Source: Microbacterium sp. VKM Ac-2870 (GTDB lineage: Bacteria; Actinomycetota; Actinomycetes; Actinomycetales; Microbacteriaceae). Taken from it: a stretch of 64,000 bases of DNA. How positions within the stretch are numbered: the first letter of the stretch is position 1; the number at the start of each line of letters is the position of its first letter. The position numbers and the translations under genes are program-made. The stretch covers positions 62,001 through 126,000 of the forward strand of contig NZ_JADKSH010000003.1 in NCBI RefSeq assembly GCF_015350795.1. Direction: 5' to 3'. The notes beneath the pieces were generated by a model. That model ran no database searches, was not told where the DNA came from, and saw nothing but the letters and a program-made list of their open reading frames with translations. Shown here in pieces: positions 34,356-37,472 of this stretch.

Positions 34356-34667
34356 TCAGACGGCGCGTTCGGCGAGCAGCGCGCGATGCTCGGGGTGCGC
34401 GGCGAACCAGTCGGCGACATACCAGCACACCGGGCTGATCACCCGGTGTCCGCTGGCGGCGACCTCCGCCACCGCACGCGCGACGACCTCGCCCGCATAT
34501 CCGTGACCGCGGAACGTCGGCACGGTGTAGGCGCGCGTCATCGCGACAGTCCGGCCGTCATCGCGGTAGTCGAGGACGCTCACGATGTCATGGCCCTTGC
34601 GCAGGGTGTAGCGCGACGCGTCGGTCTCGTTCGTGAACGAAAGATCATCGCGTTGCTCTGCGGTCAT
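34356..34667 (-). CDS. Small GNAT-like N-acetyltransferase (YjdJ type)
   Basis: A 103-residue protein of the compact acetyltransferase family PF14542. It has VPTFRGHGYAGEVVARAV, matching the acetyl-CoA pyrophosphate loop (R-G-x-G-x-A), and the C-terminal ISPVCWYVADWFAAHPE, matching the family C-x-Y-x-x-x-x-x-x-x-HPE. Natural substrates are not established. TAGCGT lies seven bases before the ATG, inside the end of the upstream kinase-like gene, so it may be leaderless. Confidence 0.85.
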   Translation of the reverse strand: MTAEQRDDLSFTNETDASRYTLRKGHDIVSVLDYRDDGRTVAMTRAYTVPTFRGHGYAGEVVARAVAEVAASGHRVISPVCWYVADWFAAHPEHRALLAERAV

Positions 34668-34672
34668 GGCGT

Positions 34673-35290
34673 CTACGCTACGCCGAAGCCCGCGCCACGA
34701 GGGCCGGGCGCGGCAGGGCGGACGGGATCAGCGGGCAGAGACGCGAGCCACGCGTCGACCTCGCGCTGGCCGCGGAGTCGCACCACGGGGTCGCCCGCTG
34801 CGATGCGCGCCTGCATGCGGGCACGCGTCTTCGGATAGCTGGTCCACGCCCACCGGATGATGTTCTCCTCCGGTTCCCACCGGAACCACGACGCGATGCG
34901 CTCACGGTTGCCGTGCCAGAGCTCTTCGCGCAGGATGCCGCGGCGCACGGTGCGCGCGACGACCCGCCGCATCACGAGGTTGCGAGGATGGTCCAGCCAG
35001 ACGACGATGTGCGCACCGCCGGGGGTGCCCGGCTCCATCAAACCCTCGAGACGCGTGTTCCAGTTGCCGTCCGCCACCCAGCCGTCGGGGTGCGCGTCGA
35101 GGAAGACGCGCACGCGTCGGCGGGCCTCATCGACGTCGCGATAGGTCCATCCCTCGTCCCAGAACACCTCGTCGAGTTCGAGCCGCGGAACTCCCGTGCG
35201 CGCGGCGACCATCTGCGCGAGCCGCGACTTTCCCGAACCCGATGTCCCGACGATGCGGATGCGGGTGGGGTGGGAAGCGTTCACGACCAT
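34673..35290 (-). CDS. P-loop adenylate-kinase-like protein (topology-modulation/FlaR type)
   Basis: A 205-residue NTP-binding protein. It has Walker A IVGTSGSGKSRLA, the motif PRLELDEVFWDEGW (typical of this family, which places an Asp after the second strand), and GGAHIVVWLDHPRNLVMRRVV. The C-terminal half is Trp- and Arg-rich (WFRWEPEENIIRWAW). The enzyme activity is unknown; relatives are annotated as adenylate kinase-like or DNA topology modulation proteins. The start is uncertain: ATG at 35290 or an in-frame GTG at 35302; neither has a strong ribosome site. Divergent from the leader peptide. Confidence 0.75.
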   Translation of the reverse strand: MVVNASHPTRIRIVGTSGSGKSRLAQMVAARTGVPRLELDEVFWDEGWTYRDVDEARRRVRVFLDAHPDGWVADGNWNTRLEGLMEPGTPGGAHIVVWLDHPRNLVMRRVVARTVRRGILREELWHGNRERIASWFRWEPEENIIRWAWTSYPKTRARMQARIAAGDPVVRLRGQREVDAWLASLPADPVRPAAPGPRGAGFGVA

Positions 35291-35337
35291 GCACTCTGTC
35301 ACATTCCGTCATCTTGCGGCGCCGACACCCGTGCGGT

Positions 35338-35367
35338 TTGACACATCGCGACGCGGTTCGTCATAAT
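35338..35367 (+). promoter_or_regulatory. Strong promoter for a leaderless transcript
   Basis: TTGACA (-35) at 35338-35343, an 18-base spacer and CATAAT (-10) at 35362-35367. The -10 ends seven bases before the ATG at 35375, so transcription should start at or next to that codon. Confidence 0.72.
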
Positions 35368-35374
35368 CGGCCTC

Positions 35375-35476
35375 ATGACTGACAACGCACGCACTCTGTC
35401 CGCCCTGGAGGCGAACGGACCTGCCGGCATCATGATGATGCCGCGCGTTGCCCTGTGTTGCCGAATGTGCCACTGA
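35375..35476 (+). CDS. Leaderless Cys-rich leader peptide
   Basis: A 33-residue open frame that begins at the predicted transcription start and ends with a Cys cluster: MPRVALCCRMCH, with Cys at 28, 29 and 32. There is no ribosome site, and the strong promoter places the ATG at the mRNA 5' end. Leaderless short frames ending in clustered Cys codons are known in mycobacteria as cysteine-responsive attenuators. Here ribosome stalling at the Cys codons could control the winged-helix gene 213 bases downstream. The peptide itself probably has no function. The role is inferred from its architecture. Confidence 0.65.
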   Translation: MTDNARTLSALEANGPAGIMMMPRVALCCRMCH

Positions 35477-35689
35477 CGGTGAACCCCGCCGGGTGCGCCC
35501 GCCGACTCTGACCCACTCGGTCGGTCGGCCGCCACCCCCCGAGCACCGCGCCGCGCACAACGCGGATGCCGGCTGTCTCGCACTGGCCCTCGCATCGCAT
35601 CCGATGCGGACCTCTCCGGGCCCCTCGCAACACACGCTCGAACCCGCTCTCGGCTCACTGCCCGGGTTCCGCCTCCGAAGGACATTCCC
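35477..35689 (+). other. Putative attenuator region after the leader peptide
   Basis: Noncoding stretch between the leader-peptide stop and the winged-helix start. It holds a perfect seven-base hairpin CGCATCG-CATC-CGATGCG at 35591-35608 and a second stem GAACCCG/CGGGTTC at 35640-35669 that ends seven bases before the ribosome site. No T-run follows either stem, so control would be Rho-dependent or at translation. Confidence 0.4.
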
Positions 35690-36433
35690 GTGTCGAACAC
35701 CGCTCTTCTCGCCTCGCCCGCCCCCGTCCGCCACCTGCACGCCGTCAGCGACACCGCTCCGCGCCGCCCGGCTCTCGCCGTCCCGGCCGCGCCGCCCGCC
35801 CCGACCACGGCGACCGGCAGCATCCCGGTGGGCACCGCCCCGCGCGGCTTCGCCCTGTACGTCGGCATCGATGAGGTCAAAGCCGCCGCCGACGGCGTCT
35901 CGCTCTCGACTCTCGTCGAGGCCCTCCGCCGCACGCTCGGCGAACTCGCGCCCCACGCCGAGACATACGCCACGGTCGCTCTGGCGCCTGCGGCAGCCGG
36001 CGGCCGCGATGTCGACGTCGTGCGCCTCGCCCTGCACGAGCCGAGCGCCGTCGCCCGCACCAAGCAGGACGAGCCCGAAGACGATCACGTTCCCGGAGGC
36101 GTCACGATCGACATCTCGCGTCGACGCGTGCACATCGAGGGCGAGTCGGCGCAGCTGACCTTCAAGGAGTTCGAGCTGCTGCAGTACCTCGTGCTGCGCG
36201 AGGGACGCACCATCGAGCGCACCGAGCTCGTGTCGTCGCTGTGGAGCCACGCCGACGCCGACGACGCACCGGGCGAGCGCACGATCGACGTGCACGTGCG
36301 CCGTCTTCGCGCCAAGCTCGGCCGGTACGAGGAGATCGTGCGCACCGTGCGCGGCATCGGCTACCGCTTCGACCGTCACGCCGACGTCGTCATCCGCTAC
36401 GGTCACGGCACGCCCTCCCCCGACCGGTTCTGA
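35690..36433 (+). CDS. Winged-helix (OmpR/PhoB-type) DNA-binding regulator
   Basis: A 247-residue regulator without a receiver domain. The N-terminal half has a Pro/Ala-rich stretch and a short alpha/beta segment (ALYVGIDEVKAAADG). The C-terminal domain (about 140-232) is a PhoB-type winged helix: LTFKEFELLQYLVLREGRTI, then ERTIDVHVRRLRAKLG as recognition helix, and TVRGIGYRFD as the wing. It has no phospho-acceptor pocket, so it probably responds to something other than a histidine kinase. It begins with GTG, with GAAGGA seven bases upstream. The Cys-rich leader peptide lies upstream, suggesting expression tied to cysteine or sulfur supply. Confidence 0.82.
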   Translation: MSNTALLASPAPVRHLHAVSDTAPRRPALAVPAAPPAPTTATGSIPVGTAPRGFALYVGIDEVKAAADGVSLSTLVEALRRTLGELAPHAETYATVALAPAAAGGRDVDVVRLALHEPSAVARTKQDEPEDDHVPGGVTIDISRRRVHIEGESAQLTFKEFELLQYLVLREGRTIERTELVSSLWSHADADDAPGERTIDVHVRRLRAKLGRYEEIVRTVRGIGYRFDRHADVVIRYGHGTPSPDRF

Positions 36434-36491
36434 TCGCCGCCGGCGGCCGACGACCGCCGGAGTGTCGGAGGCGGTGACATAGGGTGGCCGC

Positions 36492-37472
36492 ATGACCACG
36501 CGGGAGAGGATGCCGGTGCGCCCGCCGGCGCCCCCGCGACCGGCATCGACACCCGATCCGCGGCCCGCGCCGTCCCGACCGATCGAGACCGAGTACCGGC
36601 CCGCGACGCCGATCGACGCCGCCCGGGCGATCCGTTACCAGCAGCGGGGAACGCACGACCCGTCACAGCTCGACGACCAGGGCGTCATCTGGCGGGCGAT
36701 GCGCACACCAGAGGGCGTCGCGACGATCGCGATCCGCGTCGAGCGGACGCGGATCCGCGCCGCCGCGTGGGGCGGCGGAGCGTCGTGGAGCCTCGATCAG
36801 CTTCCCCGCCTGTGCGGCGCGGACGACGATCCCGACGGCTTCGAGGCGCACCGGCATCCGGTGATCGCCGACACCCACCACCGGCACCCCGGCCTCCGCC
36901 TCGGGCGCACCGACCTTCTGTTCGACGCGCTCGTCAGCGCGATCTTCGAGCAGAAGGTGACCGCCGTGCAGGCGTTCGGTGCGTGGCGGATGATCCTGAC
37001 CTGGTGCGGGGAGCGCGCCCCCGGCCCCACCCCTCGGCCGATGTTCGCTCCGCCCGCCGACTGGCACCGCATCCCCAGCTGGACATGGCACCGGGCGGGA
37101 CTCGAGCCGCCGCAATCGCGCACCATCGTCGAGACCGCCGCGCGGCGCACGTCGCTGGAGCGGACGGCGCACGATGCGACCTCCGCCGATCGGGCGCTCA
37201 CGAGTCTGCGCGGCGTGGGAGCGTGGACGAGTGCGGAGACGCGCATCCGGGCGTTCGGCGATGCGGATGCCGTCAGCGTCGGCGACTACCACCTCGCCCA
37301 TCAGGTGGGCTACGCGTTGACCGGACTCCGCGTGGACGACGACGGGATGCTGGAGCTTCTCGAGCCGTGGCGGGGGCACCGCCAGCGGGTGATCCGCCTG
37401 CTCGGTCTCAGCGGCCGCCTCGAGCCGCGTCGGGGTCCGCGCCTGGCGCCCGAAGACCACCGGGCCCGCTGA
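36492..37472 (+). CDS. AlkA-like DNA-3-methyladenine glycosylase
   Basis: Probable base-excision enzyme for alkylated purines, 326 residues. The HhH-GPD region has LVSAIFEQKVTAVQAFGAWR, the hairpin LRGVGAWTSAETRIRAF (L-x-G-x-G), and SVGDYHLAHQVG with the catalytic Asp near residue 260. The Pro/Arg-rich first 30 residues look disordered. TAGGGT lies six bases before the ATG, fitting a leaderless mRNA. There is no Ada-type regulator beside it. Confidence 0.88.
   Translation: MTTRERMPVRPPAPPRPASTPDPRPAPSRPIETEYRPATPIDAARAIRYQQRGTHDPSQLDDQGVIWRAMRTPEGVATIAIRVERTRIRAAAWGGGASWSLDQLPRLCGADDDPDGFEAHRHPVIADTHHRHPGLRLGRTDLLFDALVSAIFEQKVTAVQAFGAWRMILTWCGERAPGPTPRPMFAPPADWHRIPSWTWHRAGLEPPQSRTIVETAARRTSLERTAHDATSADRALTSLRGVGAWTSAETRIRAFGDADAVSVGDYHLAHQVGYALTGLRVDDDGMLELLEPWRGHRQRVIRLLGLSGRLEPRRGPRLAPEDHRAR

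Follow-up and report, generated by a model that had tools for sequence, protein, structure and literature searches.

A conserved leaderless Cys-CGA-Met upstream frame as a candidate translation attenuator of a near-universal Microbacteriaceae regulator

A predicted leaderless uORF lies upstream of a winged-helix regulator gene

The window, that is, the whole 64,000-nucleotide stretch of Microbacterium sp. VKM Ac-2870 DNA that we analysed, contains a short upstream open reading frame (uORF) between a promoter and a regulator gene. An earlier note on this DNA had described a promoter TTGACA-18-CATAAT and a 33-codon frame ending CCRMCH, and both are present as follows, together with the elements downstream of them:

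35338..35367, + strand: sigma-A type promoter TTGACA-18-CATAAT, with the -35 element TTGACA at 35338-35343 and the -10 element CATAAT at 35362-35367
35375..35476, + strand: predicted leaderless uORF of 33 codons ending in LCCRMCH and a stop, from the open reading frame list and its conservation
35456..35470, + strand: predicted pause site Cys28-Cys29-Arg30(CGA)-Met31-Cys32, from the constancy of CGA at C-R-M
35477..35669, + strand: C-rich untranslated leader (46% C, 28% G) with predicted hairpins; a possible Rho loading stretch
35678..35692, + strand: Shine-Dalgarno sequence AAGGA (35678-35682), spacer and GTG start of the regulator gene
35690..36433, + strand: winged-helix regulator of 247 aa with a C-terminal OmpR/PhoB-type DNA-binding domain, closest to GlnR

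In the window sequence the end of CATAAT stands 7 nt from the uORF ATG (35375), and from this promoter geometry the 5' end of the mRNA is predicted to lie at that ATG. The stretch 34500-37200 holds one promoter-like site, against 0.1 in shuffles. The frame at 35375-35476 translates as MTDNARTLSALEANGPAGIMMMPRVALCCRMCH followed by a stop, and the uORF matched no family in NCBIfam (E up to 10) or Pfam (E up to 1). Within the window there were no Rfam matches above the gathering score, and a simple scan gave no intrinsic terminator-like sites. A kinase-like gene (AAA_33, below the cut-off; 34673-35302, minus strand) is divergent from the uORF promoter.

Several other features were considered and rejected. 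A DNA operator was suspected in the palindrome GTCCGCC-N5-GGCGAAC inside the uORF, which, searched as GTYCGCCN5GGCGRAC, occurs at 3 exact places in the window's own genome and at 39 with at most one mismatch (reversed control, 5); since the block differs in other genera, the idea was dropped. A second CCRMC site in the same genome was taken as chance because it sits within another reading frame. An antisense promoter, an overlapping GTG frame and a transcription pause at CGAATG were dropped after inspection by eye.

The downstream gene, which the earlier note had called a DNA-binding protein, deserves that name: PF00486 covers residues 151-227 and is the sole Pfam family above its cut-off. No receiver domain was recognised by Pfam in the N-terminal half, which has conserved residues and is without a recognised family or confident fold; the mean AlphaFold2 pLDDT of the protein is 66, with a poorly predicted N-terminus, and among the Foldseek matches listed the alignment runs through the DNA-binding domain. 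The closest solved DNA-binding domain is that of actinobacterial GlnR (8hml, 8hig; also 8hih), with 42-44% identity over about 100 columns; the comparison differs in the N-terminal half, where the receiver domain is not recognised in the present regulator. The regulator occurs in 147 of 150 sampled Microbacteriaceae genomes, and its neighbour genes, judged by eye, vary between genera. In two loci (L247, 9441-10609; L250, 6287-7434), upp-like and tadA (tRNA adenosine deaminase)-like genes, named by eye, adjoin it.

The uORF and its place before the regulator are conserved

Among the best 80 of 532 regulator-bearing contig loci, nearly all labelled Microbacterium, the uORF is present in 79, 78 of them by a strict DNA pattern. 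L066 carries a variant that has lost one Cys (M-R-C-R-M-C), and L052 cannot be judged, as its contig is cut and starts too near the regulator gene. In the 79 Microbacterium rows, which comprise the window and the 78 strict-pattern loci, C28, C29, R30, M31 and C32 are invariant, and R30 is CGA throughout while the Cys codons mix TGT and TGC. A promoter score of at least 8/12, with the -10 element ending 6-7 nt from the ATG, was reached by 79/79 of these rows and by 49/96 rows of the family set, against 2/875 random positions. The codons TCC GCC nnG GAG GCG AAC (S-A-x-E-A-N) are nearly all base-invariant in Microbacterium, suggesting a constraint on the RNA rather than on the peptide there.

A profile (A1) built from 33 uORFs and searched in 150 Microbacteriaceae genomes gave one match each in 100 of them, covering 61 of 85 genera. 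By coordinates, 98 of the 100 matches lie directly upstream of the regulator; of the other two, one lies elsewhere (G082, a chance match) and one is on a contig that ends (G107). A further 49 genomes bear the regulator, and 31 of these loci were read. A short frame ending around CGAATG was found in 26, which cannot count as evidence for CGA because the search for them used CGAATG; L216 (G005) also has a uORF, leaderless and ending ...MRSKMCA with AAA in place of CGA, giving 27/31, and none was found in L203, L217, L219 and L220. Altogether, a related uORF stands upstream of the same winged-helix regulator in 125 of the 129 regulator-bearing Microbacteriaceae genomes examined. By script, the regulator is downstream on the same strand in 122/124 family leaders; the two lacking a call are L178, which ends with the contig, and L210, whose stretch includes too little of the gene. 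Conservation of the frame in relatives, whose absence the earlier note would have taken as a refutation, is borne out both in Microbacterium (79/80 loci) and across the family (125/129 genomes). Within the family, the L214 (G130) uORF has a repeated MMPVL/MMPVR unit followed by ACCRMCA.

A search of 149 genomes of the order at E 1e-25 found the regulator in 36, of which 26 lie outside Microbacteriaceae; one of the outside families we take to be Micrococcaceae, from protein matches named Arthrobacter, Kocuria and the like. Ten Micrococcaceae loci were read. Five carry a GTG frame of the leaderless type whose N-terminus bears no relation to that of the Microbacteriaceae uORFs and whose last residues are CCRMHA, CCRMQA or CCRRMQA, each time with CGAATG; CGAATG is absent in 3. 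In L227/L254 (G188) CGAATG is kept out of frame with a leaderless GTG, and L230 (G286) has two CGAATG copies in a different context. Other Cys-containing short frames, with ends LCVRDLTC or MPCVRCR, precede the regulator in L235, L237 and L240, from a third family of the order, and are possibly a separate uORF type. The earlier note had expected a variable N-terminus; this proved wrong within Microbacteriaceae, where the N-terminus does not vary in this way, probably because the RNA there folds. The Micrococcaceae loci are the only ones with an unrelated N-terminus.

CGA-ATG is the most constant feature of the uORF

The Arg codon of C-R-M is CGA in 161/161 distinct uORFs, whereas other Arg codons in the same uORFs are CGA in 8/392; with repeats the figures are 176/176 and 8/443, the 176 rows being 97 family and 79 Microbacterium rows with the window counted twice. 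Of the 1079 Arg codons in 33 putative window genes, 95 are CGA. The fetched profile matches number 99; with L183 (...SSCRMPA) and L089 (...CCRMCR) left out, the remaining 97 all share the middle Cys, Arg and Met, and among those 97 the preceding Cys is kept in 83 and the following Cys in 91. A CCRMC near the end occurs in 79/79 Microbacterium rows and 88/124 family rows, and the residue preceding Arg-Met is Cys in 116 of 124 family leaders, a count that includes the 26 selected through CGAATG. All 124 family uORFs have at least one Cys near the end, and 8 have a single one. The Cys-rich end pointed out in the earlier note is conserved. TGT makes up 9 of 60 Cys codons in window genes, compared with 339 TGT and 186 TGC in the uORFs. 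The most constant uORF feature is the codon pair CGA-ATG, above the flanking Cys codons. Pairing cannot account for this constancy, as CGAATG stays unchanged also where no complement to it is present. In actinobacteria CGA is decoded by an inosine-bearing tRNA-Arg, and the inosine required for this is made by TadA.

Predicted pairing between the uORF and the regulator leader

Folding predictions pointed to the following RNA elements at the locus:

35401..35413, + strand: hairpin CGCC-CTGGA-GGCG inside the uORF, from RNA folding and invariant bases
35407..35413, + strand: GGAGGCG, exact complement of CGCCTCC (35670-35676) beside the regulator Shine-Dalgarno, from the minimum-energy fold
35426..35442, + strand: predicted hairpin GGCATCATGATGATGCC around the Met codons
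35454..35463, + strand: Cys-codon arm TGTGTTGCCG of a predicted long-range helix P4, with an 8-nt run TGTGTTGC:GCAACACA
35463..35468, + strand: GAATGT, an exact 6-nt complement of ACATTC (35682-35687) in the regulator ribosome site
35626..35634, + strand: CGCAACACA, the conserved 3' arm of helix P4, from the alignment fold and the window fold
35640..35669, + strand: predicted hairpin GAACCCG (35640-35646)/CGGGTTC (35663-35669) just before the ribosome site, from stem counts

The earlier note had spoken of two hairpins before the ribosome site; hairpins are predicted, but that picture is too simple, as they lie within the uORF and along the leader. The GGAGGCG/CGCCTCC pairing and the hairpin at 35401-35413 are mutually exclusive, and the former is not kept in all relatives. 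Among the predicted hairpins GAACCCG/CGGGTTC is the best supported: a stem of at least 6 just before the ribosome site is found in 70/79 Microbacterium leaders (26.2 expected), and in the same stretch of 53/117 leaders of the family set (32.9 expected). When four Microbacterium groups were folded separately with RNAalifold, TGTGTTG(Y)CG, which holds the Cys codons, was predicted in groups A, A2 and B to pair with CGCARCACA, about 45-75 nt before the regulator start. Group C gave a different long-range helix from the same Cys codons; helix P4 was recovered in 3 of the 4 groups and in the window folded alone.

Two blocks of the uORF, ATGATGATG (35432-35440; the Met block) and TGTTGTCGAATG (the Cys block), have complements in the leader downstream, in many cases within the spacer that precedes the regulator start codon. 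In many relatives, but not in the window, the ATGATGATG block is antisense to CATCATC(ATG). Runs of exact Watson-Crick complementarity to the downstream leader were compared with shuffles, not with a tree, and shared ancestry inflates such counts. Of the 124 family sequences, two were dropped because their leader is too short; in the other 122 the Cys segment has a run of at least 7 nt in 56 (16.4 expected), and the ATGATGATG segment, first run as a control window so that its excess is a post hoc find, has one of at least 8 nt in 43 (5.8 expected). Five other uORF segments showed no excess in these 122 leaders. With one genome per genus (n=72, the window's genome included; expectation from 200 shuffles), the Cys or Met block has a run of at least 7 nt in 58 (24.3 expected, shuffle maximum 37) and of at least 8 nt in 43 (8.1 expected, maximum 18), and the whole uORF has a run of at least 7 nt to the start region in 25 (5.5 expected, maximum 12), two other uORF segments again showing no excess. 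Across 81 Microbacterium sequences CATCATCATG occurs at the start site (CATCATC directly before ATG) in 20 of 57 regulator sites as opposed to 0 of 643 other Shine-Dalgarno-like sites. The pairing registers shift between genera and the complementarity stays, as in L202/L210 (ATGGTATGCG:CGCATACCAT), L125 and L091, and, in another register, in L108 and others (TGTCGAAT:ATTCGACA). In six Micrococcaceae leaders the CGAATGCA region has a leader complement, with z for the gapped score averaging 1.5 and exceeding 1.64 in half of them.

Other measures revealed little or no excess. The duplex energy between the Cys region and the leader in Microbacterium was -26.7 observed and -26.4 permuted, and the gapped score across the family showed little excess (z averaged 0.25, compared with 0.07 in another segment). 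Neither block has an exact run of at least 7 nt in 30 of 79 Microbacterium leaders. In the window the exact complement to the start region spans only 6 nt, and the GGAGGCG:CGCCTCC match beside the Shine-Dalgarno is also exact. Covariation at the third base of the first Cys codon is weak, C facing G in 5 and A in 2. In a nested thermodynamic model, which excludes the pseudoknots that loop-to-spacer pairing would need, exchanging the real uORF for a shuffled one did not make the start region more accessible (accessibility was lower with the real uORF in 35/79 and 49/96). A single stalled ribosome failed to free the start region, and when the whole uORF was masked the gain was as large with a shuffled uORF (0.115 versus 0.109; 0.086 versus 0.077). 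The model therefore did not support masking of the start site.

The uORF does not follow sulfate reduction

The genome of the window (G000) has no match to PF01077 (sulfite reductase) or PF01507 (PAPS reductase), so this Microbacterium probably cannot assimilate sulfate. PF01077 was found in 42 of 150 Microbacteriaceae genomes; splitting the matches by length and score left 13 whose match is long and scores highly, as for a sulfite reductase, and the remainder, mostly in frames of about 900 aa, look like nitrite reductase. A link to sulfate reduction was rejected, as the distribution of the uORF does not follow that of sulfite reductase. No sulfur genes were seen beside the regulator in the loci inspected by eye, and no other result connects the regulator with sulfur.

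Proposed mechanism and alternatives

The conserved frame, the promoter geometry, the fixed place before the regulator, the CGA codon and the complementarity of the two blocks in many relatives are features of the sequences themselves. On balance, we think that the uORF probably is a translation attenuator of the near-universal winged-helix regulator, with a pause at Cys-CGA-Met and cysteinyl-tRNA shortage as the likely signal. The regulator mRNA is predicted to begin with the first codon of the leader peptide gene, which would be translated. Once ribosomes have left the uORF, its RNA would pair with the leader and start region, and the regulator would be repressed; ribosomes paused, and queued, at Cys-CGA-Met would prevent this pairing and allow the regulator to be made. 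With less certainty than these steps, a shortage of cysteinyl-tRNA may lengthen the pause, and CGA may be a built-in slow codon that sharpens it. The regulator would accordingly be made when cysteine, or decoding speed, is low. The earlier note had proposed a cysteine attenuator of the regulator. Attenuation is well supported, since conservation extends to the leaderless uORF, to the Cys-rich end of its peptide and to its association with the regulator; cysteine as the signal is the less certain part, given single-Cys uORFs (8/124), the greater constancy of CGA-ATG and the missing PF01077 and PF01507.

The same attenuator might instead sense general decoding speed, through CGA and its inosine-bearing tRNA-Arg or through translation inhibitors, with the Cys codons serving mainly as pairing sequence. 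We regard this as the less likely signal. In its favour, CGA varies less than the Cys codons on either side of it, TGT dominates in the uORFs though it is rare in window genes, as expected if the bases matter, the two sulfur families are absent from the genome, and the tadA-like and upp-like genes adjoin the regulator in L247 and L250. Against it stand the retention of at least one Cys near the end in 124/124 family uORFs, with the flanking Cys kept in 83 and 91 of 97, and the AAA that replaces CGA in L216. A wider version, which we put forward tentatively and consider unlikely, makes the uORF a family-wide gauge of decoding speed: CGA-ATG, decoded with an inosine-modified tRNA-Arg, and the Cys codons beside it would time the ribosome on a leaderless uORF whose codons are themselves antisense to the leader and start region of the regulator, and tRNA charging and modification would set the level of the OmpR/GlnR-like regulator in Microbacteriaceae and part of Micrococcaceae.

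It is similarly doubtful that the output is transcriptional, with the C-rich leader loading Rho or forming a pause and uORF translation deciding whether RNA polymerase gets as far as the regulator. The untranslated leader of about 200 nt and its composition in the window would suit this reading, as would a paper cited in PMC13236596 on Rho and uORF translation in the leaders of M. tuberculosis, but the simple scan found no intrinsic terminator-like site, and the complementarity often extends to the start codon spacer, a sign of translational control. A functional micropeptide, such as one binding thiols or metals through MMM...CCRMC, with the regulator link mere operon structure, would account for a conserved Met- and Cys-rich peptide; it is improbable, because the Micrococcaceae loci have an unrelated N-terminus, much of what is conserved in the peptide falls on constant bases or on paired RNA, and the Arg is constant as a codon, beyond the residue. 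Short frames are common (87 listed), yet a chance open frame after the promoter is refuted by all the conservation results and its likelihood is negligible.

If the attenuator reading is true, a ribosome-reading switch stands before a regulator present in 147/150 Microbacteriaceae genomes, most of them seemingly without a true sulfite reductase, and would give a first handle on this near-universal protein. It would also be a natural case of one synonymous codon (CGA) nearly fixed over many genera within a leader peptide, and the predicted antisense pairing of such codons with a start region can be tested directly.

Comparison with known systems

We found no account of this uORF in the open-licence PMC literature searched. 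The mycobacterial gene Rv0485 is presumably a regulator. According to Shell 2015 (PMC4633059), a Cys-rich uORF precedes Rv0485/Msmeg_0932 in mycobacteria, so a Cys-rich uORF before a putative regulator is not unprecedented. In the whiB7/wblC system, as outlined in PMC13236596, stalled ribosomes on a uORF induce a transcription factor by what is described as transcription attenuation; the present uORF would resemble it in such induction by stalled ribosomes, but the simple scan gave no terminator-like site here and the regulator is of the OmpR/PhoB type, not WhiB. In the Salmonella his leader CGA causes ribosome stalling and de-attenuation (PMC4046918); there it was engineered into the histidine leader, whereas here it is natural and nearly invariant.

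The closest likeness is to the mycobacterial polycysteine leaderless short ORFs (PMC4633059; Canestrari 2020 via PMC9031893 and PMC13236596), which stand leaderless at a promoter, as is predicted for the present uORF, with Cys codons likewise at the end, and for which attenuation through ribosome speed, with uORF RNA hiding the ribosome site, has been proposed, the same scheme as we propose here. The mycobacterial uORFs described lie mostly before cysteine-metabolic genes and have contiguous Cys codons. In contrast, the present uORF has a Cys-Arg(CGA)-Met core, usually with 2-3 Cys, precedes a near-universal regulator instead of genes of cysteine or sulfur metabolism, and has complementarity that often reaches the spacer between Shine-Dalgarno and start codon. 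The uORF would thus work like the mycobacterial cysteine uORFs, and what appears new is the regulated gene, the CGA core and the predicted antisense to the start region.
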